A DNA stretch of 64,000 nt, from NCBI GenBank assembly GCA_024399065.1, contig JAKSIB010000002.1, forward strand, positions 124,001-188,000, given 5' to 3'. Each line of letters starts with the position of its first letter. The stretch's first letter is position 1. This DNA is from Fibrobacter sp. (GTDB lineage: Bacteria > Fibrobacterota > Fibrobacteria > Fibrobacterales > Fibrobacteraceae). A program made the position numbers and the translations under genes. Shown piece after piece: positions 44,227-53,573 of this stretch. Under the pieces are notes generated by a model that did not search any database, was not told where the DNA came from, and saw only the letters and a program-made list of their open reading frames with translations.

Positions 44227-44333
44227 TTAGTGGTTGGTGGTTAGTGGTTGGTGGTTAGAAACTTTAGAAAACGTTCATCTCTCGCATTTCCTGTTTACGG
44301 AATCAAAGATTCCTAACCACTGTTTACTAATCA
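44227..44333. repeat. Inverted heptanucleotide arrays, TTAGTGG type
   Basis: TTAGTGG/TTGGTGG, four and a half units at 44227-44258, and the complementary CTAACCA-type, three units at 44313-44333. A 54-base core separates them; together they could form a fold-back. The left array is the nrdR leader and the right one ends just after the transketolase stop. Confidence 0.9.
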
Positions 44334-44336
44334 CTT

Positions 44337-46403
44337 TTAGTTATTCTTCTTGAATTCCTCGACGTTAGCCTTGTATTCAGCCAGGTATTCCTTAGCGGCA
44401 GCCACAACTGCTTCCGGAGTGTAACCGAATTCCTTTTCCAGGACGCCAGCTGGAGCGGAAGCACCGAAGCGTTCCAGACCGGAAACCTTACCGAAGCCAC
44501 CCACGACCTGAGCGAACAGGAGCGGGAGACCGCTGGACTTGGCGAACACCGGAGTCCACGGGGTAATGATGGAATCGCGGTATTCCTTGCTCTGGCTCAT
44601 GAAGAGAGCCGGGCTGATCATGGAGACCACGCGAACCTTGAGACCTTCGGCGCGGAGAACATCTGCAGCGTCGTGAGTCAAGAGAACGTCGGAACCGTTG
44701 GAAACGAAGGTGAGGTCCGGACGGGCTGCACCGCAGTTGTCACTAACAACGTAAGCACCCTTACGGCACTTGGCAGCGTCAACCTTGCGATCACCCGGGA
44801 GAGTCTTCACGTTCTGGCGGGTAAGAATGATAGTGGTGGGGCTATCGTTGTTTTCGAAAGCCATTTCCCAAGCGGCAACAGTTTCGAATGCGTCTGCCGG
44901 ACGAAGGACCAGCATTTCGGACTTACCGTTAGCCTTCTTGAGGCCTTCCAGCAAACGAATCTGAGTTTCGTGTTCGATAGGCTGATGAGTAGGACCATCT
45001 TCGCCAACGCGGAAGCTGTCATGAGTGTACATGAACTTCACCGGCAGGCCCATGAGAGCAGCCATACGGAGAACCGGCTTCATGAAGTCGCTGAACACGA
45101 AGAAGGTTGCGCAAATCGGATAGAGACCGCCGTGGAGGGCGATACCGCAGCAGATAGCACCCATGGTAAGTTCGGCAACACCGACCTGGACGAAGCCGCC
45201 CTTGAAGTCGTTTGCGCGGAAGATACCGGTCTTGTTGAGGAAGGCCTGGGTATTATCGGAGTTAGAAAGATCAGCAGAAGAGCAGATGCAGTTCTTCACG
45301 TTTTCAGCCAGGTGACCGAGGATGGTACCAGAGGTAACGCGGGTTGCAACGCCTTCCTTGAGTTCGAGACCGGTGAGGTCAATCTTCGGAGCCTTGCCAG
45401 AGAGCCATTCCTTGAGGGTTGCTGCCTTTTCAGGATTTGCAGCGTCCCAAGCAGCCTTTTCCTTCTTCCAGGCTTCGACTTCCTTGCGAAGTTCGGCCTT
45501 GCGAGCTTCGAATGCTTCAGCAACGTCCGGGAAAATCTGGAACGGTTCTGCCGGATCGCCACCGAGGTTCTTCACGGTTGCGTCGGTAGAAGCACCAGCG
45601 GCATTCAGCGGCTGGCCGTGGGTAGAGACAGCACCTTCGAAGGACTTGCCGTCTTCGGCAATGGCGCCCTTAGCCATGGTGGTGTGACCGATCACGATGA
45701 CCGGTTTTTCAGTTTCTGCCCAAGCAGCCTTGAAAGCCTTGCGGAGAGAGGCAATGTCGGAACCATCGGAGTCAATGACGCGGAAACCCCATGCTTCGTA
45801 CTGCTTCACGAAGTCGTGGCTCATCACGTCTTCGCAGCGGCAGGAAAGCTGGACCTGGTTGGCGTCATAGAAGAAAATCAAGTTGGAGAGCTTGAGGTGA
45901 CCAGCGACGCGGCCCACGCCGTAAGCGATTTCTTCTTCGAGACCGCCATCGGAAACCAGGCAAACCACCTTGTGGTTCAGGATGTCGCCGAAACGTTCCA
46001 CCATGAAGCGTTCTGCGATAGCGTTACCGAGGGCAAGACCATGACCGATACCGAGGGGGCCACTGGAGTTTTCGATGCCGAGGGCAACTTCAACTTCCGG
46101 ATGACCAGGGGTACGGGAACCCAACTGGCGGAAGTTCTTCAAGTCTTCCATGGAGAGCTTACCCTGGAGGGCAAGTTCGGAATAAAGAAGTGCAGACATA
46201 TGGCCCGGGTCCATGAAGAAACGGTCACGGGCTTCCCAGTTGGGGTTTTCAGGGTCAAAACGGAGGAATTCTGCGAAAAGGAGGGTGGTAGCGTCAGCTG
46301 CACCCATGGCTCCACCCGGATGACCGGACTTTGCCTTCTGCACCATGGCAGCGGAAAGAATTCGAACGTTGTCGGCCGCTTTTGTAACTAATGCGTCTTG
46401 CAC
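44337..46403 (-). CDS. tkt: Transketolase
   Basis: 688 residues. The thiamine diphosphate site has GHPGGAMGAAD and VSDGGLEEEIAYG. The pyrimidine-binding domain and the transketolase C-terminal domain are complete (THDSFRVGEDGPTHQPIEH). It moves two-carbon ketol units between pentose phosphate pathway sugars and glycolysis. AGAGAGG precedes the ATG. Confidence 0.96.
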   Translation of the reverse strand: MQDALVTKAADNVRILSAAMVQKAKSGHPGGAMGAADATTLLFAEFLRFDPENPNWEARDRFFMDPGHMSALLYSELALQGKLSMEDLKNFRQLGSRTPGHPEVEVALGIENSSGPLGIGHGLALGNAIAERFMVERFGDILNHKVVCLVSDGGLEEEIAYGVGRVAGHLKLSNLIFFYDANQVQLSCRCEDVMSHDFVKQYEAWGFRVIDSDGSDIASLRKAFKAAWAETEKPVIVIGHTTMAKGAIAEDGKSFEGAVSTHGQPLNAAGASTDATVKNLGGDPAEPFQIFPDVAEAFEARKAELRKEVEAWKKEKAAWDAANPEKAATLKEWLSGKAPKIDLTGLELKEGVATRVTSGTILGHLAENVKNCICSSADLSNSDNTQAFLNKTGIFRANDFKGGFVQVGVAELTMGAICCGIALHGGLYPICATFFVFSDFMKPVLRMAALMGLPVKFMYTHDSFRVGEDGPTHQPIEHETQIRLLEGLKKANGKSEMLVLRPADAFETVAAWEMAFENNDSPTTIILTRQNVKTLPGDRKVDAAKCRKGAYVVSDNCGAARPDLTFVSNGSDVLLTHDAADVLRAEGLKVRVVSMISPALFMSQSKEYRDSIITPWTPVFAKSSGLPLLFAQVVGGFGKVSGLERFGASAPAGVLEKEFGYTPEAVVAAAKEYLAEYKANVEEFKKNN

Positions 46404-46586: not shown

Positions 46587-47246
46587 TCAGCGAAAAAGTC
46601 GTTGGTTGAACTCTATTTCGAAGCCTGCATAGGAAGAGGAAATCTTTCGAAGGGCGGTGCACAAACCATCAGTTTTCCCCTGGTACGGGTAATTTCGACA
46701 GACTTTCAATTCAGGTGCGCGGGACCGGATTTCATCGATGATTACGTCTGCAATTTCTTTCTCCAAGGGGCGACTAGGATCATAAAGGACTCCCACATCG
46801 GCATTTCTTTCTTTTCCGTCCAGCACAGGCGTAAAACTGTGTATCGCCAAATGGAAAATGGGCTTTTCCGACGATCCAACAAAATTTTCCAGGGAATCTC
46901 GATAATCCAGGTAGTAAGCGAAAGCCTTTTTTCGCAAGGCATAATATTTAGCTACAGTGCGGTCATCAGCCAACGGAGCTGGAGCGCAATGTTCCCAAAA
47001 CTCGCTGAAAACACTTTTATTCCAAAGGCTACGATTCAGGTCTATAAACAGCCTGCTGTATCTTCCTGCAGAATAGAAATCCGGTTTCAATTTCCTCACC
47101 AAGGCGTCATAAAGTTCCACCGCCCCAATATCGTATCCACGATGGGTATTCAGAATTTCCCGGGGAATTTCCAAATTACGGGCAAAGGAAGGAATGTCGT
47201 TGCGAGCATGTTCGCAAGTAACGATCAACTTAAAATCATCAAACAT
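46587..47246 (-). CDS. N-formylglutamate amidohydrolase-family protein
   Basis: I start at the Met of MFDDFKLIVTCEHARNDIP (47246), since the longer frame would overlap the upstream gene and adds unrelated residues. Residues show the family blocks TCEHARNDIP, THRGYDIGAVELYDALV, and SRLFIDLNRS, with a later HSFTPVLDG. In histidine degradation this family removes a formyl group; in amidoligase clusters its substrate is thought to be different. It is the last gene of a four-gene set with C39 peptidase, ATP-grasp and GCS2 genes. Metal ligands appear intact. Confidence 0.82.
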   Translation of the reverse strand: MFDDFKLIVTCEHARNDIPSFARNLEIPREILNTHRGYDIGAVELYDALVRKLKPDFYSAGRYSRLFIDLNRSLWNKSVFSEFWEHCAPAPLADDRTVAKYYALRKKAFAYYLDYRDSLENFVGSSEKPIFHLAIHSFTPVLDGKERNADVGVLYDPSRPLEKEIADVIIDEIRSRAPELKVCRNYPYQGKTDGLCTALRKISSSYAGFEIEFNQRLFR

Positions 47247-47263
47247 ATGTGTCCCGGAGAACC

Positions 47264-48511
47264 TTACTCCACGTCGTACAAAGTATTTTCTGCAAGGCAA
47301 CGGGCCAAGCGACCGTATTCGCAAACAAAATCGTCACGTCCCGGATTTGCCCCAACGTTTTTCACCAGGGCGCTGGCGAGAGTCCCGCGGTTGAACATTT
47401 TCTGGAGAAGAGTCAGAGAGTGGGCGGAAATCTTGGACTGAACTTTTGCGGTGATTTTCTTGATGAGTTCGCCTGCCGTGATTTCGGAAGCTTCGATACC
47501 GAAGGCTAGCAGGAAGTTCTTGTCGCGAATGATCGTCTTTTCGGCGAAGCGGGTGGTGTCCAGCAAGATTTTTGCGAGGGCTTCCGTCTCCAGCTTTTTC
47601 ACACGGTTCAATGCGAAGGAAGAATCCAGCCCGGTGAAAGCTCCTTCGGTAAGACCCTTCAGCACCGCCACTTCCCATTCAGCGATGGCGATGTCGGCGT
47701 CGGGGCATTCCTGAATGTCCACCAGACGGATTTCCACGGCACCCCGGTCAAAGCGGGCGATGGCGCCACGACTATTGAGGAAAAAATGATTCAGCAAATG
47801 CTCCGGATCGTGGGGAGCGATATCCGCCTTCACCTTCTCGAAAATCTGCTTGTTGTAATCGTCGTAGGTGAATACGGCTTCCGGAATCACCATGCCTGCG
47901 ATGCTGGGGATGCGATCCTGATTGTGGCGGTAAGTTTCGATACGGCCATCCAGGTAACCGCAGTATTTTCCATCCAGGAAGGGGCTGGAAGCGGCGATGG
48001 CAGGAATCAGGGGCAAGAGGGCGCGAATGGCTGCATGCAACTTCCCGAATTCTTCATCCCCATTGAAACTCAGGTTGATGTGGGTGCTCTGGAGGTTTGC
48101 CCAACCGTGGCCCTTGCAGTTGAAAATGCGATCGTAGGTCTCGTAGATTTCATTGCAGTCGTATGCCCACAACTGCATTTCCGCAGGATCCATAAAGGGG
48201 TGGGCTGCACTAGGCAGGAGCATGGCGTTAATGGACTTCAGCTTCTCATTGGCCAGCAGGATTTCCTTATGGAAAGCGGCACCAAGATTTTTCAGGTGGT
48301 CCACGGGGTTTGCGCACTTGAATTCCAAAACATGACTCACCAGCTCGTTGGAAAGCCCAATGCTACCGTGTTCCACATCGGAAAGCTGTTCGCCGTTCTT
48401 ATCACGACCCAGGGGCACGTCTGCACGAGGGAGGACATTTAAATTGTCACGGTCAACGATCATGTATTCCATCTCGATGCCGTATTTTTGCCAAAGTTTG
48501 TAGGAGTTCAT
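47264..48511 (-). CDS. GCS2-family carboxylate-amine ligase
   Basis: 415 residues, from the GCS2 branch of the glutamine-synthetase-like COOH-NH2 ligases. KYGIEMEYMIVDRDN holds the N-terminal Glu-rich ATP/metal site, STHINLSFNG and GAVEIRLVDIQECP the further active-site strands. These enzymes join an amine to a carboxylate using ATP, as in gamma-glutamylcysteine formation. It starts inside the stop of the ATP-grasp gene (ATGA overlap), so the two are coupled. Not in a glutathione operon, which favours a peptide-type product. Confidence 0.83.
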   Translation of the reverse strand: MNSYKLWQKYGIEMEYMIVDRDNLNVLPRADVPLGRDKNGEQLSDVEHGSIGLSNELVSHVLEFKCANPVDHLKNLGAAFHKEILLANEKLKSINAMLLPSAAHPFMDPAEMQLWAYDCNEIYETYDRIFNCKGHGWANLQSTHINLSFNGDEEFGKLHAAIRALLPLIPAIAASSPFLDGKYCGYLDGRIETYRHNQDRIPSIAGMVIPEAVFTYDDYNKQIFEKVKADIAPHDPEHLLNHFFLNSRGAIARFDRGAVEIRLVDIQECPDADIAIAEWEVAVLKGLTEGAFTGLDSSFALNRVKKLETEALAKILLDTTRFAEKTIIRDKNFLLAFGIEASEITAGELIKKITAKVQSKISAHSLTLLQKMFNRGTLASALVKNVGANPGRDDFVCEYGRLARCLAENTLYDVE

Positions 48512-50010
48512 AGATAGAATGCTCTCTCGTGTTGAAGTAGTTTTTGTTGGGCTGCGTTCAGGCGGTCTTCGATGCGGTGGCGCAAGGAACGCATGATGGC
48601 AGCGTAGATTTTTCTTTTACCGACCTGATCTTCAATCCCCGCGTCGATACTGGGGTTATCGTTGACTTCTACTACAATGGGGAGTCCGTTCCATTCCTTA
48701 AGATCCACGCCATACAAGCCGTTGCCAATCATGCTGCAGATTTTAAGCGCAGTCTTTACAACGCCATGAGGCACATTTTCAATCGGCAGACAGTCGAACA
48801 TGCCGCAAATTTCATCCTTGTCCTCGCTGGCCCAGTTATAGATTTGCCAGTGGTCCTTTGCCATGTAGTATTTGCAGGCATAAAGAGGCTTTCCGTCCAG
48901 CACGCCAATGCGCCAGTCAAAATCCGTGGGGGTAAATTCCTGGGCAATCAAAAGGTCGCTGGTCGCGAACATCTTGTTCAGCGTATCTTCCAGTTCCTCG
49001 TTGTTGGTCACCTTCTTCACGCCCATGGAAAAACTGGAATCCGGAGACTTCAGCACCATAGGAAACCCGATTTCCTTGGCCAAGGTGTGTCGATTTTCGG
49101 AATGGGCGATAATGGTCTTTGGCGTATGGATTTTTGCAGCCTGCATCAGTTCCTGAAGGTACACCTTGTTGGAACAGCGGAGGATGCTATCCGGATCATC
49201 GATGACAGCGATACCCAAGGATTGTGCGCGGCGGGCAAAACTGTAAGTGTAATGATTGACGTTGGTGGTTTCGCGAATGAACAGAGCGTCAAATTCACCG
49301 ACGCGGTGGTAATCCTTACGGGTAATCAGTTCCACACGGAAACCCGTTTCTTCGGCGGCCTTGATGAAGTTCTGGATAGCCTGGGCGTTACTGGGCGGCT
49401 CCTTTTCTTCAGGATTCGTAAGAATGGCCAAGTCATACAAGTAGTCTTCTTCCTTGCTGGTGGCGTAACGATTCTTTTCGAAGTATTCTTGGGCGAACTT
49501 GTTCACCAGTTCCATGTGGGTTTCCGGAATTTCATCCACGCAAATGGGGCGAATGCTCTGAATGAACCATTTCTGCTTAAAGATGAATTTGGCACGAAGA
49601 AGGGGCGCCTGGAACAGACGGTAAAGTTCCTGGGAAAGTTCCAAGTACTGGGGGCTCACATTCTGGCCGAAATAAATACTCAGGACGAACTCGGTTCCTG
49701 TCAACTTATGTAGACTCTTCTGAATCAAGTTGTCGATTTCGTCGGAAATATGCTTGATCACCGCAGTGGTCTTGAAATCACGCATATTCTTGACACCAGG
49801 AATCACCTTGTGGCCACGGGCTTCCGCCAAGAGGGACACATAGTAGCCCTTGCTCTGGTAACTATAATCCCTGCAGAGGTTGAAAACACGGGTATTACGG
49901 TCACTGTTGTACTTTTGGGAAATAAGGTAGTCCTGGGCAGAAACAACTTCTACGCCGGGTACATTAAGCTTCCAATTCTTCGGGTTATAAACAACAATTA
50001 ATTTTTTCAT
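48508..50010 (-). CDS. RimK-like ATP-grasp ligase with RLAN-type N-terminal domain
   Basis: 500 residues. The first 210 residues form an N-terminal domain of the RLAN type (KKLIVVYNPKNWKLNVPGVE; FNLCRDYSYQSKGYYVSLLA). The ATP-grasp core starts near 215 with FRVELITRKDYHRVGEFDAL and has LKSPDSSFSMGVKK, QEFTPTDFDWRIGVLDGK and VVEVNDNPSI (ATP/Mg site) near 445. It ligates an amino acid or peptide to an acceptor carboxylate. The overlap with the GCS2 gene and its neighbour C39 peptidase match a known uncharacterised amidoligase cluster type. Confidence 0.85.
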   Translation of the reverse strand: MKKLIVVYNPKNWKLNVPGVEVVSAQDYLISQKYNSDRNTRVFNLCRDYSYQSKGYYVSLLAEARGHKVIPGVKNMRDFKTTAVIKHISDEIDNLIQKSLHKLTGTEFVLSIYFGQNVSPQYLELSQELYRLFQAPLLRAKFIFKQKWFIQSIRPICVDEIPETHMELVNKFAQEYFEKNRYATSKEEDYLYDLAILTNPEEKEPPSNAQAIQNFIKAAEETGFRVELITRKDYHRVGEFDALFIRETTNVNHYTYSFARRAQSLGIAVIDDPDSILRCSNKVYLQELMQAAKIHTPKTIIAHSENRHTLAKEIGFPMVLKSPDSSFSMGVKKVTNNEELEDTLNKMFATSDLLIAQEFTPTDFDWRIGVLDGKPLYACKYYMAKDHWQIYNWASEDKDEICGMFDCLPIENVPHGVVKTALKICSMIGNGLYGVDLKEWNGLPIVVEVNDNPSIDAGIEDQVGKRKIYAAIMRSLRHRIEDRLNAAQQKLLQHERAFYL

Positions 50011-50028
50011 AGGAAATTTTGGGTATGC

Positions 50029-50099
50029 AGTGGTTAGTGGCTAGTAAACAGGATTGCAGAAAAATGTCCGCAACCACCAATCACTAGTCACTAATCACT
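50029..50099. repeat. Inverted heptanucleotide arrays, AGTGGTT type
   Basis: AGTGGTT, AGTGGCT, AGTAAAC at 50029-50049 and the complementary AACCACC/AATCACT units, four, at 50072-50099, around a 22-base core. The right array contains the stop codon of the C39 peptidase gene. It shares sequence with the arrays at 44227-44333. Confidence 0.9.
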
Positions 50100-50787
50100 T
50101 TTCTACTACAAGAACATTGCCGTCGTAGGTCATGACGCCAAGGAGAATACTGTGGACCAGTCGGAACTTATCCACCTTGTAGTAAGGGCCGCCGCAAAGA
50201 GGATTTGCGCAGTCCGGATCCGCCACCAGGAACTGTTTCTTTTCATCAAGGCCGTACAGCACTACGAAATGGCCGCAAGGATCCCCGATGATATCATCAA
50301 ACACAGAGCGGTTGTTTTCGTTGGTGTATTCCCGCTTGCAACCGTAGAGGTACGTGGCCGAAAGTCCGCAAAGAACAGGAACGTTCTTCTTGAAATACTT
50401 CTCGAACATGGTCGCCCGCAAGTCAGCGGTTGCCACGGTGCCACCCAGGTCAATAAAGCGAATATAGGCTTCGATAGCCTTCTTCAGTTTTGGAGCATGC
50501 TTCGCCTTGTGGAGCTGCACGAGCTTTGCGCGCAACTCCGGCATCTTGAGGCCGCTCCAGCTGGGGTCGAAAATCTTGAGATTGTAAGAATAGATGGTAA
50601 CCTTAAAGCCCCGCTTCAGGGCGTCGATACCCAGGAACACCCCAAGGGTACCACCTTCTTCAAGGAATTCGATTTCAGAGATGAGTTGTTGAAGGGAAAG
50701 GTTTAAGCCAAGATGCGCATAGACCGCGTGGAGGCTCGTGGGGCCGCAGGTCACGTCATCTGGCTGCGGCAGAATCTTGATGTCCAT
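50095..50787 (-). CDS. C39-like papain-fold peptidase
   Basis: 230 residues. The catalytic Cys is in DDVTCGPTSLHAVYAHLG (Cys 13), and the His/Asp pair in CGHFVVLYGL with the later VADPD. C39-family peptidases cleave double-Gly leader peptides; here there is no ABC transporter, and the gene lies with ATP-grasp and ligase genes. A role in processing a peptide or amide metabolite is inferred. It has no signal peptide, so it should act in the cytoplasm. First gene of the four-gene set. Confidence 0.82.
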   Translation of the reverse strand: MDIKILPQPDDVTCGPTSLHAVYAHLGLNLSLQQLISEIEFLEEGGTLGVFLGIDALKRGFKVTIYSYNLKIFDPSWSGLKMPELRAKLVQLHKAKHAPKLKKAIEAYIRFIDLGGTVATADLRATMFEKYFKKNVPVLCGLSATYLYGCKREYTNENNRSVFDDIIGDPCGHFVVLYGLDEKKQFLVADPDCANPLCGGPYYKVDKFRLVHSILLGVMTYDGNVLVVEK

Positions 50788-50972
50788 CGTTTGCCTCTGT
50801 CGAACGCCCTGGCCAACATGACCTAGGCCCTGAACTTGGCGGTGTCGGTATTACTATCTAGCCGTCGATTGGACAAGCATAAAACTACCAATATCAAAGT
50901 GCAAAAGCAAGGGGGATGGAAGAATATTTTTTTTCGTATTATCTATATTATGGAGACACCCAAAGGAGAACA

Positions 50973-53573
50973 ATGAAAAACTTCGTCACAGGTCTTTTAA
51001 AGAACTTGGCTCACCCCGGAACCATCTTCGGGCTGATTGTCGCCATTGCGGTTCCGTTCCTCATTTATCTGGCTCCGAACATCGGCCATAAGGCTACCAT
51101 CCAGAATCTGGATCTGAACCTTCCCCTGCCCCTGTTCTTCATCCAGCTTATCGCAGGGATTGTTCTTCTGGTTCTTTTGCGCAAGGATCTGAGAGACTGG
51201 TGCAAGGATGTTCTCCCGGCAAAGTCCTACTCCATTCTCGCCGTTGTTTTCGCAGTCGCCATCGCCATTTTCGCCGGCACACAGATCGAAGCCCGCCACC
51301 GCGTTCAGAGTGACGAAAGCGTTTTCCTTTCTGTGGCCCAGAACATGTATTATAACCAGCAGACTGGAACTTGCAACCAGGGTTATTTTGAAAACGGCAA
51401 CCTGAACTGCGTCGCCACCTCCAACAGTTTCAAGACCAAGGGTCTCTCCTTCCTGTACCTGTTGGGCATGCCCTTCCTGGGAACCGACCTTCATTGGGTG
51501 TTCTCCGCAGAACTGCTGATGCTCCCGCTGGCAGTACTTTTAATGTTCCTCGCGGTGGTCGCCTGGACAAAGCAGCCTCTTTTGGCCTTCTTCGCAGCCC
51601 TCCTGACCGGCCTACAGCCCACCGTACTTTTCCAGTTCCGTTCCATGTCCGTGGAACCCCTCTATATTTTCCTCTCCGCCCTCGCATTATTCACCTTCAA
51701 GTGGGCTTACGACCGTAACACCGTCAAGCATTGGGCATTGAGCGCTCTGATCCTCGCATTCTTCGCCCAGACCCGTCAAGAAACTGTTTTCTGCTTTGCA
51801 CCCTTCATTTTGATGGCCCTCCCCAAGCTGCTGGACGAGAAAGGCGCAAAGACTCCCGTTTTCTTCGTCATTCTTTCCGTTTTCACCGCTCCGGTCCTCC
51901 TGACCATCAGCTACTTCCAGGGATTCGGTTTCCAAGGTGGAGAATTCGAAGCCCACGGCCACTTCCTTGAAGACGTAAAACGTAACTGGGAAGTCATGAC
52001 CCAGCCTCTCAAGGAAAACGGCGAACTGGCCAACCCCTTCCTTTCCTACTTTAACTACCTGTTTGCAGCCGGCGGCATTTACCTGATTGTTCGAGCCATC
52101 TACGATGCCACCAAGAAGAACTACTTCTATTTGAAGGTTCTCGCCTTCGTCATTCTTTACCACATTCAGACCTATGTGATTCTGGAAAACGTCTCCGGCG
52201 ATTTCGGCATCGAAATCAACCAACGCTATAGCTTGGTGATGCTTCCCACCATGGCTTTCCTGGGAGCCCTTCCCGTCGCCCACCTGATTGAAGCCACCAT
52301 GAAATACTCCGTTCCCGAAAAAACCTTGTTCAAGGGAACATTTATTGCAGGCGTTATTGTTGCCTTGTGCTTTGCCGGATGGACTGCCCACTACAAGGAA
52401 TCTTTCAATAACAACATTATGTACAACCGCAACCATTTGACCATCGAGGAACACGAAATTCTCAGTTGGTTGAAGGAACAGCCCAAGGCAGAGCGTTTGT
52501 TCATTTACGGAAGACCCTGGCACTTCGTCGGTTACGGCATTTCTTCTATCCACTACGACAGAGCCCGTAAATTAAACGATGACGGCCTTAAGGAACTCAT
52601 TAACAAGTACAATGGCGAAGTCTACTACATCCGCGGCCTGGATTGTTGGGACAGCAAGACCTACCATAAGAAGGCTGTAGAACATCGTATTCCAACAACT
52701 TGCGATATTTTCGAACGAGAAATGGACATGGATGGCGTGAAAAACATCCTTGTCACCAACAATTACTGGGTTCAAATCGCCAAGTTCAATGGCCGCAAGA
52801 ATTTCAATCCCAAGAACATCATTGTAATTGATGAACCAACCCTCAGCAAAGCCGTTCCCGAAGAAAAGCTGAACTTGAATGAAATGGAAGAAAACACCGA
52901 CGTCAACAAGATTGTCGTTGATTCCGTCAAGTTCAACTACAATCTCAAGGAAAACGGTGAAGCCGCAGGCGATTGGGATTTGCGCATTGTTCTGAACAAC
53001 AAAAGCATGCAGTTCGGCAAGTACGAATTCGGCGAAGCCACTTTCGCCCTTCCCATTGACACCCTGCCACCCGGATACAGCAACATCCGTTTCATCATTA
53101 CCAACAGAAATTCCGGAAAGATCATTGCCAACGTCAATAAGACTTACTTCAACGCTGCAGACGGAGTTGTCAATCTTGCAGACTTGAAGTACGAAAGTCA
53201 TAAGCAGGACTGGGGATCGATGGGTTTCAATCAGACCATTGAAGGCCACAAGTTCACAGTCAACAGCAACACTTACGACAACGGCCTTGGCACACACGCA
53301 TCTTCCGAAACTGTTTACAATATCGAAGGCAAATATTCCAGCTTCCGTACAAGCTACGCCTTGGACGACGAATCCATCTGTAGCGACGGCGTGTTCATTG
53401 AAATTTGGGGTGACGGAAATCTCCTCGCCCAGTCCCAGCCTTTCCAGAACGGAATCATCCAGACGATTACCGCCCGCGTAAAGGACGTTCAAAAACTGAC
53501 TCTTAAATCTCGTCCTGTGGACGGCATCAACTGCAGCCACGTCGACTTTATTCAACCTGTACTTATCCCGTAG
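50973..53573 (+). CDS. Membrane glycosyltransferase with C-terminal NPCBM-like domain
   Basis: Start at ATG 50973 (AAAGGAGAA before it). The first 490 or so residues form a multi-pass membrane glycosyltransferase of the ArnT/PMT-like (GT39/83) kind: about eleven helices, and an early acidic ARHRVQSDESVFLSVA loop where catalytic Asp residues lie. A 350-residue soluble part ends in an NPCBM/NEW2-like domain (about 745-866: NGLGTHASSETVYNIEGKYS). It moves sugars from polyprenyl phosphate to envelope molecules. The following GT2 gene would make its donor. Confidence 0.78.
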   Translation: MKNFVTGLLKNLAHPGTIFGLIVAIAVPFLIYLAPNIGHKATIQNLDLNLPLPLFFIQLIAGIVLLVLLRKDLRDWCKDVLPAKSYSILAVVFAVAIAIFAGTQIEARHRVQSDESVFLSVAQNMYYNQQTGTCNQGYFENGNLNCVATSNSFKTKGLSFLYLLGMPFLGTDLHWVFSAELLMLPLAVLLMFLAVVAWTKQPLLAFFAALLTGLQPTVLFQFRSMSVEPLYIFLSALALFTFKWAYDRNTVKHWALSALILAFFAQTRQETVFCFAPFILMALPKLLDEKGAKTPVFFVILSVFTAPVLLTISYFQGFGFQGGEFEAHGHFLEDVKRNWEVMTQPLKENGELANPFLSYFNYLFAAGGIYLIVRAIYDATKKNYFYLKVLAFVILYHIQTYVILENVSGDFGIEINQRYSLVMLPTMAFLGALPVAHLIEATMKYSVPEKTLFKGTFIAGVIVALCFAGWTAHYKESFNNNIMYNRNHLTIEEHEILSWLKEQPKAERLFIYGRPWHFVGYGISSIHYDRARKLNDDGLKELINKYNGEVYYIRGLDCWDSKTYHKKAVEHRIPTTCDIFEREMDMDGVKNILVTNNYWVQIAKFNGRKNFNPKNIIVIDEPTLSKAVPEEKLNLNEMEENTDVNKIVVDSVKFNYNLKENGEAAGDWDLRIVLNNKSMQFGKYEFGEATFALPIDTLPPGYSNIRFIITNRNSGKIIANVNKTYFNAADGVVNLADLKYESHKQDWGSMGFNQTIEGHKFTVNSNTYDNGLGTHASSETVYNIEGKYSSFRTSYALDDESICSDGVFIEIWGDGNLLAQSQPFQNGIIQTITARVKDVQKLTLKSRPVDGINCSHVDFIQPVLIP

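Follow-up and report, generated by a model that had tools for sequence, protein, structure and literature searches.

Two putative ligases and two putative hydrolases encoded side by side raise the question of what such an operon makes and what it then takes apart. We address this question for four adjacent genes within a 64,000-nucleotide stretch of DNA from Fibrobacter sp. (the window). Gut Fibrobacter commonly carry these genes, which extend over several phyla, and literature searches on combinations of the gene names returned no paper on the four-gene cluster and no reported product. Here, we show that the cluster is real and conserved; judging from its sequence, it is probably functional as well. 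We propose, with somewhat less than even confidence, that the operon makes a small N-capped peptide through RLAN and GCS2, which C39 and FGase turn over. Two features that bear on this proposal, the separation of the ligase genes from the hydrolase genes in some relatives and an apparent exchange between GCS2 and GNAT, are absent from an earlier, preliminary description of the locus and derive from the present comparison of sequences.

Gene content and layout of the operon

The operon consists of four minus-strand genes in the order C39, RLAN-ATP-grasp, GCS2, FGase:

50095..50787, minus strand: stand-alone C39-type cysteine peptidase, 230 aa, at the head of the operon (Pfam C39/C39_2)
50011..50094, minus strand: spacer between the C39 and RLAN genes, with TAGTGRYTRGTG repeat (0.01 matches to its pattern expected in the window, 4 observed)
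48508..50010, minus strand: RLAN domain plus RimK-like ATP-grasp amide ligase, 500 aa (Pfam RLAN, RimK)
47264..48511, minus strand: GCS2-fold carboxylate-amine ligase, 415 aa (Pfam GCS2)
46587..47246, minus strand: FGase (N-formylglutamate amidohydrolase)-family hydrolase, 219 aa counted from ATG (Pfam FGase)

This is the gene set named in the preliminary description, and it holds up well: each protein scores above its Pfam gathering threshold, the order is conserved, and the ATGA overlap reported there lies at the RLAN/GCS2 junction (48508-48511). The FGase reading frame opens at TTG 47324, the limit of the open reading frame. ATG 47246 is the more likely start, since it comes directly past the GCS2 stop, behind AAGG, and relatives align from there. 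In a genome-wide search, RLAN, GCS2, FGase and operon-type C39 each occur once.

A transketolase gene (46403..44337) flanks the operon on one side and a divergently transcribed gene for an 885-aa protein (50916..53573) on the other. The 885-aa protein is rich in hydrophobic stretches and carries an NPCBM domain at its C-terminus, with no further family over the cut-off. The TAGTGRYTRGTG units belong to an intergenic repeat with inverted ends, present at 44228-44336 and 50012-50097; one copy lies within the operon, in the C39/RLAN gap, and the other separates nrdR from the transketolase gene. All four matches to the pattern in the window are exact.

Conservation of the four genes as a unit

Scanning 84,980 species, each represented by one genome, yielded 80 loci. 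The exact order C39-RLAN-GCS2-FGase is seen in 48 of the 111 first-round loci (species scan plus Fibrobacterota search), many of the other 63 being limited by contig ends or locus length. It occurs in Fibrobacterota, Bacteroidota, Ignavibacteriota, Leptospiraceae and Desulfobulbaceae, and this recurrence of the order across several phyla indicates that the four-gene run is not due to chance. A Legionella plasmid record carries RLAN-GCS2-FGase; Flavobacteriaceae have both ligases and FGase, with C39 not adjoining. Outside Fibrobacterota, 4-nt overlaps are found at 24 of 61 RLAN-GCS2 junctions and 20 of 44 GCS2-FGase junctions. Because the flanking genes vary by group, we take the conserved unit to be the four genes themselves.

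Within Fibrobacterota, RLAN is present in 69 of 121 genomes. GCS2 accompanies it in 67 of these 69, against one fragment among the 52 genomes that lack RLAN; the corresponding figures are 61 versus none for C39, and 54 versus two fragments for FGase. Fisher p values for co-occurrence with RLAN (GCS2, 1.6e-30; C39, 4e-26; FGase, 7e-18) are descriptive only, as they are uncorrected for shared descent. RLAN stands alone in two Fibrobacteraceae genomes (G009 and G093). Homologues lying apart from one another would have counted against the preliminary description. Instead, the neighbourhoods compared show an order that recurs across phyla and near-perfect co-occurrence in the 121 Fibrobacterota, and its view of the cluster as one conserved functional unit is borne out.

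Two outlying records deserve mention. A P. aeruginosa plasmid record (L112 7908-9497) carries a solo RLAN ligase without adjoining GCS2, FGase or C39; genes for glutamate transport and a gamma-glutamyltransferase lie a few kb away. One Fibrobacter genome (G097), in which the searches found neither RLAN nor GCS2 nor C39, has a 75-aa FGase remnant (L187 6391-6618), perhaps left over from a system since lost.

The co-inheritance bears on whether the operon merely salvages N-acylated or gamma-glutamyl amino acids, its ligases acting on housekeeping metabolites. Known FGase members work in histidine degradation, and the single FGase and single GCS2 of this genome would suit such a role. However, the hydrolases show tight co-inheritance with ligases that consume ATP, and no other conserved gene appears in the neighbourhoods read. 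We consider salvage the least probable of the readings weighed here.

A substrate peptide gene near homologues, which the preliminary description had proposed to look for, did not emerge: among 2583 small ORFs within 1.5 kb at 77 loci, none is conserved beyond a genus. The best-conserved small ORFs were rejected as precursor or tag candidates; they are confined to Rufibacter and its near kin and overlie flanking genes. No ABC exporter is fused to C39 or adjoins it in the neighbourhoods read, in agreement with the preliminary description, which had reported no exporter beside the operon. These results weigh against a RiPP-like pathway, in which C39 would cleave the leader off a ribosomal precursor peptide modified by GCS2 and RLAN. 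That idea draws on the double-glycine leaders classically cleaved by C39 peptidases, and on the graspetides (PMC8939145), ribosomal peptides modified by certain ATP-grasp enzymes. Since Flavobacteriaceae, in addition, retain the ligases and FGase without adjacent C39, we regard it as very unlikely.

Separation of the ligases from the hydrolases

In F. succinogenes-like genomes, RLAN and GCS2 remain together while C39 and FGase form a separate adjacent pair. In G019, for example, C39-FGase (L182 6375-7807) lies about 120 kb from RLAN-GCS2. By coordinates, the split arrangement is present in about eleven genomes of the Fibrobacterota draw. It looks derived, because relatives outside the F. succinogenes-like clade (L056, G040) hold all four genes together. 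The split implies that the ligases and the hydrolases behave as two pairs. Another genome (G106) has the operon elsewhere; at the site where F. succinogenes-like genomes have C39-FGase, it carries a second such pair (L186 3459-4414), whose C39 is cut to 94 aa (CGQTSLH, internal loss).

Active sites and structural relatives

Residue conservation was judged in relatives down to about 36–55% identity, and we assign roles to single residues in the four enzymes from family knowledge. In the RLAN protein, the RLAN domain (PF14401; residues 25-170; 161.6 bits vs a gathering score of 25) precedes a RimK-like ATP-grasp region (38.2 bits vs 21), and K282, K321, R367, D436, E448 and N450 are invariant. 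The nearest folds to the ATP-grasp half of its AF2 model are LysX, ArgX and RimK (Z 25.7-27.9, rmsd 2.1-3.1 Å over 262-274 residues), with D-Ala ligases lower (Z about 23); the whole-model search covered residues 188-484 only. The strand and helix order of RLAN had prompted the idea that it is a degenerate copy of the pre-ATP-grasp/ATP-grasp lobe, which was rejected when profile-profile comparison gave a probability below 1%. The protein falls under the cut-offs for RimK (TIGR00768, 73.1 vs 143.4; PRK10446, 26.9 vs 331) and LysX (TIGR02144, 68.6 vs 275.6).

The GCS2 protein (PF04107, 67.3 bits vs 21) has invariant G11-x-E13-x-E15, the GhExE Mg/ATP signature, together with invariant H135, R253 and E260. 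Its profile has no match at E 0.01 among PDB sequences, and its relatives came from fold comparison. The AF2 model (pLDDT 92.5) is nearest to YbdK (Z 37.8, rmsd 2.9 Å, 347 residues), then to plant glutamate-cysteine ligase (Z 32.6, rmsd 3.3 Å, 363 residues), and PafA/Dop score about 20.

Turning to the hydrolases, the C39 protein exceeds the gathering scores of both C39_2 (30.2 vs 24) and C39 (28.3 vs 22), aligns with the ComA peptidase domain, and keeps Q8, C14, H173 and D190 invariant, which we take to be the Q-C-H-D catalytic set. It is not of the bacteriocin-exporter type: it is stand-alone, with neither an exporter nor a conserved small ORF adjoining. FGase (PF05013, 64.4 bits vs 28.9) aligns with 2ODF (E 7.5e-13), and E12, H13, R65, N71-R72, H132 and H136 are invariant (219-aa numbering).

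One could envisage a low-molecular-weight thiol, or glutathione-like, pathway in which GCS2 forms gamma-Glu-Cys, RLAN adds a third residue, and C39 acts as a phytochelatin-synthase-like transpeptidase. The closeness of the GCS2 fold to plant glutamate-cysteine ligase, the pairing of GCS2 with an ATP-grasp enzyme as in the gene logic of glutathione synthesis, and the papain fold common to C39 and phytochelatin synthase all speak for this idea. However, GCS2 stays below the glutamate-cysteine ligase equivalog cut-offs (TIGR02048, 26.1 vs 249.05; PRK13517.1-1, 34.7 vs 332), and no glutathione synthetase reaches its cut-off anywhere in the genome (TIGR01380, best 16.5 vs 299.05 bits, bifunctional GshF lying outside the search). 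For glutathione synthetase, the preliminary description's statement that no glutathione gene is present holds at this cut-off across the genome, and the result that it had named as refuting, a GCS2 supplying only glutathione, was not found. Where GNAT may replace GCS2 (see below), the gamma-Glu-Cys step would be lost as well. A thiol product therefore seems improbable.

The main rival to the small N-capped peptide, ranked below it, is a reversible protein-modification system. C39 would expose or trim a terminus, GCS2 (or GNAT) would cap an amine, RLAN would add carboxyl-terminal residues as RimK does on S6, and FGase would remove them in the manner of RimB. Two ligases and two hydrolases suit a reversible tag, a RimK-RimB ligase/protease pair is known (PMC12239564), the ATP-grasp half is nearest in fold to LysX/ArgX and RimK, and GCS2 shares the PafA/Dop fold. 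Nonetheless, YbdK and glutamate-cysteine ligase are far closer to GCS2 than PafA/Dop, RLAN lies under the RimK and LysX cut-offs, and no small gene conserved beyond a genus adjoins the operon to supply the tag that pupylation-type tagging would lead one to expect. We regard protein modification as rather unlikely, though deserving of more weight than a thiol pathway.

GNAT in place of GCS2

RLAN is present in 23 of 198 Bacteroidota genomes drawn, beside GCS2 in 16 and linked to GNAT in seven. Six of these seven carry a RimI-like GNAT at the N-terminus of RLAN itself, and in one RLAN adjoins a GNAT-C39 protein. Similarly, in Azospirillum (L114) a GNAT-C39 (DUF3335) protein lies beside RLAN. The seven Bacteroidota genomes contribute eight proteins of this kind; four were scanned for families, and the other four were identified from their length and their place in the tree. 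An operon-type GCS2 is absent from all seven: G270, G286, G314 and G188 give only 20–30-bit matches, and the proteins matched, of about 650 aa, are also found in RLAN-less genomes, and G216, G212 and G282 give no GCS2 match in the profile search. Three RLAN-less Bacteroidota (G203, G321, G255) encode a GCS2 of about 432–457 aa (105–125 bits), a type whose score is distinct from both the YbdK-like and the operon types.

Six genomes have the GNAT-RLAN fusion only, without C39 by the operon-type profile; this absence refers to that profile alone, which also missed the DUF3335-type C39 of G282, and divergent C39 may lie elsewhere in the GNAT-fusion genomes. On the maximum-likelihood tree, the GNAT label changes three times. 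The safe count is that the linkage arose at least twice, because one change depends on the long, partial L163 row. Among families, the GNAT partners match RimI best, a point in favor of protein modification, and TIGR03103, the NAGGN synthetase family, is not among the families of fusions L151 and L162. The window operon has no GNAT; GNAT and ATP-grasp are joined in one protein only in the Bacteroidota relatives.

The simplest reading of GNAT where GCS2 is missing is that the two look interchangeable and carry out an equivalent step, although alternation need not mean that the step is identical. Both are able to acylate an amine, which suggests that RLAN may act on the capped amine and extend the carboxyl end. 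This is the weakest link of the argument.

A proposed cycle of synthesis and recycling

From the gene content, the conserved active sites, the co-inheritance, the separation of ligases and hydrolases and the presence of GNAT where GCS2 is missing, we infer a reaction order, substrates, a small product size and hydrolase targets as follows. In the cytoplasm, GCS2 would acylate an amino acid on its amine, the gamma-carboxyl of glutamate being the likeliest donor. RLAN, as an ATP-grasp enzyme, would then activate the free carboxylate of the capped product and add a further amino acid, in a step resembling those of glutathione synthetase or LysX/RimK, to give a small N-capped peptide. C39 and FGase, as a separate hydrolytic pair, would trim or degrade this product; FGase would probably free the carboxyl-terminal residue and C39 would cleave the other amide bond.

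Several observations run counter to the small-peptide reading. Solo RLAN genes imply that RLAN may act without a capping partner, and C39 peptidases usually cleave peptides, a hint of a larger substrate. The nearest named relatives of GNAT and RLAN are RimI and RimK, which modify ribosomal proteins. A more general formulation is a cycle of two modules, serving metabolism or tagging: either of two unrelated enzymes, GCS2 or GNAT, caps the amine, RLAN ligates the next residue, and a dedicated pair of C39 and FGase reverses the product. We hold this to be possible, while doubting it somewhat more than we credit it. If true, its capped peptide or reversible tag would belong to a class whose chemistry has yet to be described. 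Should RLAN extend a capped amino acid and C39/FGase undo this, the product would be new, whether as a compatible solute, a signalling peptide or a tag on proteins. Between them, the separation of ligases from hydrolases and the exchange of GNAT and GCS2 constrain the chemistry sufficiently to permit a direct test.

Comparison with known systems

By its title and citing papers, Iyer et al. 2009 (doi 10.1039/b917682a) reportedly deals with ligases of the ATP-grasp and glutamine-synthetase folds and the gene contexts in which they occur, and a gene cluster of this general kind was probably already predicted there. Two later papers cite that study for amidoligases (PMC4431377, PMC12239564). It is thus plausible that the cluster matches amidoligase clusters predicted in the literature, as the preliminary description claimed.

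Glutathione synthesis uses a GCS-type gamma-glutamylcysteine ligase followed by an ATP-grasp glutathione synthetase, and the window operon likewise combines a GCS2-fold ligase with an ATP-grasp ligase. Unlike that pathway, the operon misses the equivalog cut-offs, includes a hydrolase pair, and has relatives in which GNAT can replace GCS2. RimK/RimB and LysX/ArgX share with it a RimK-type ATP-grasp, being its nearest solved folds, and RimK too has a protease partner; the window differs in its extra RLAN domain, its GCS2 partner and its scores below the family cut-offs. The Azospirillum locus also links a C39 fold to an RLAN ligase, but with GNAT rather than GCS2, a DUF3335-type C39 and no adjoining FGase.

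A further parallel is the system for the osmolyte NAGGN. Its enzyme Ngg, composed of GNAT and ATP-grasp, N-acetylates glutamine and ligates a second glutamine; Ngg and AsnO together yield NAGGN, and the operon includes a peptidase gene (PMC8070244). The window differs in having GCS2 rather than GNAT, an ATP-grasp of the RLAN/RimK type, no adjoining AsnO-like gene, and C39 and FGase instead of a glutamyl aminopeptidase. Nevertheless, both operons pair an amine-capping enzyme with an ATP-grasp ligase and carry a peptidase gene, and the GNAT-RLAN fusions, like Ngg, hold both activities in one chain.
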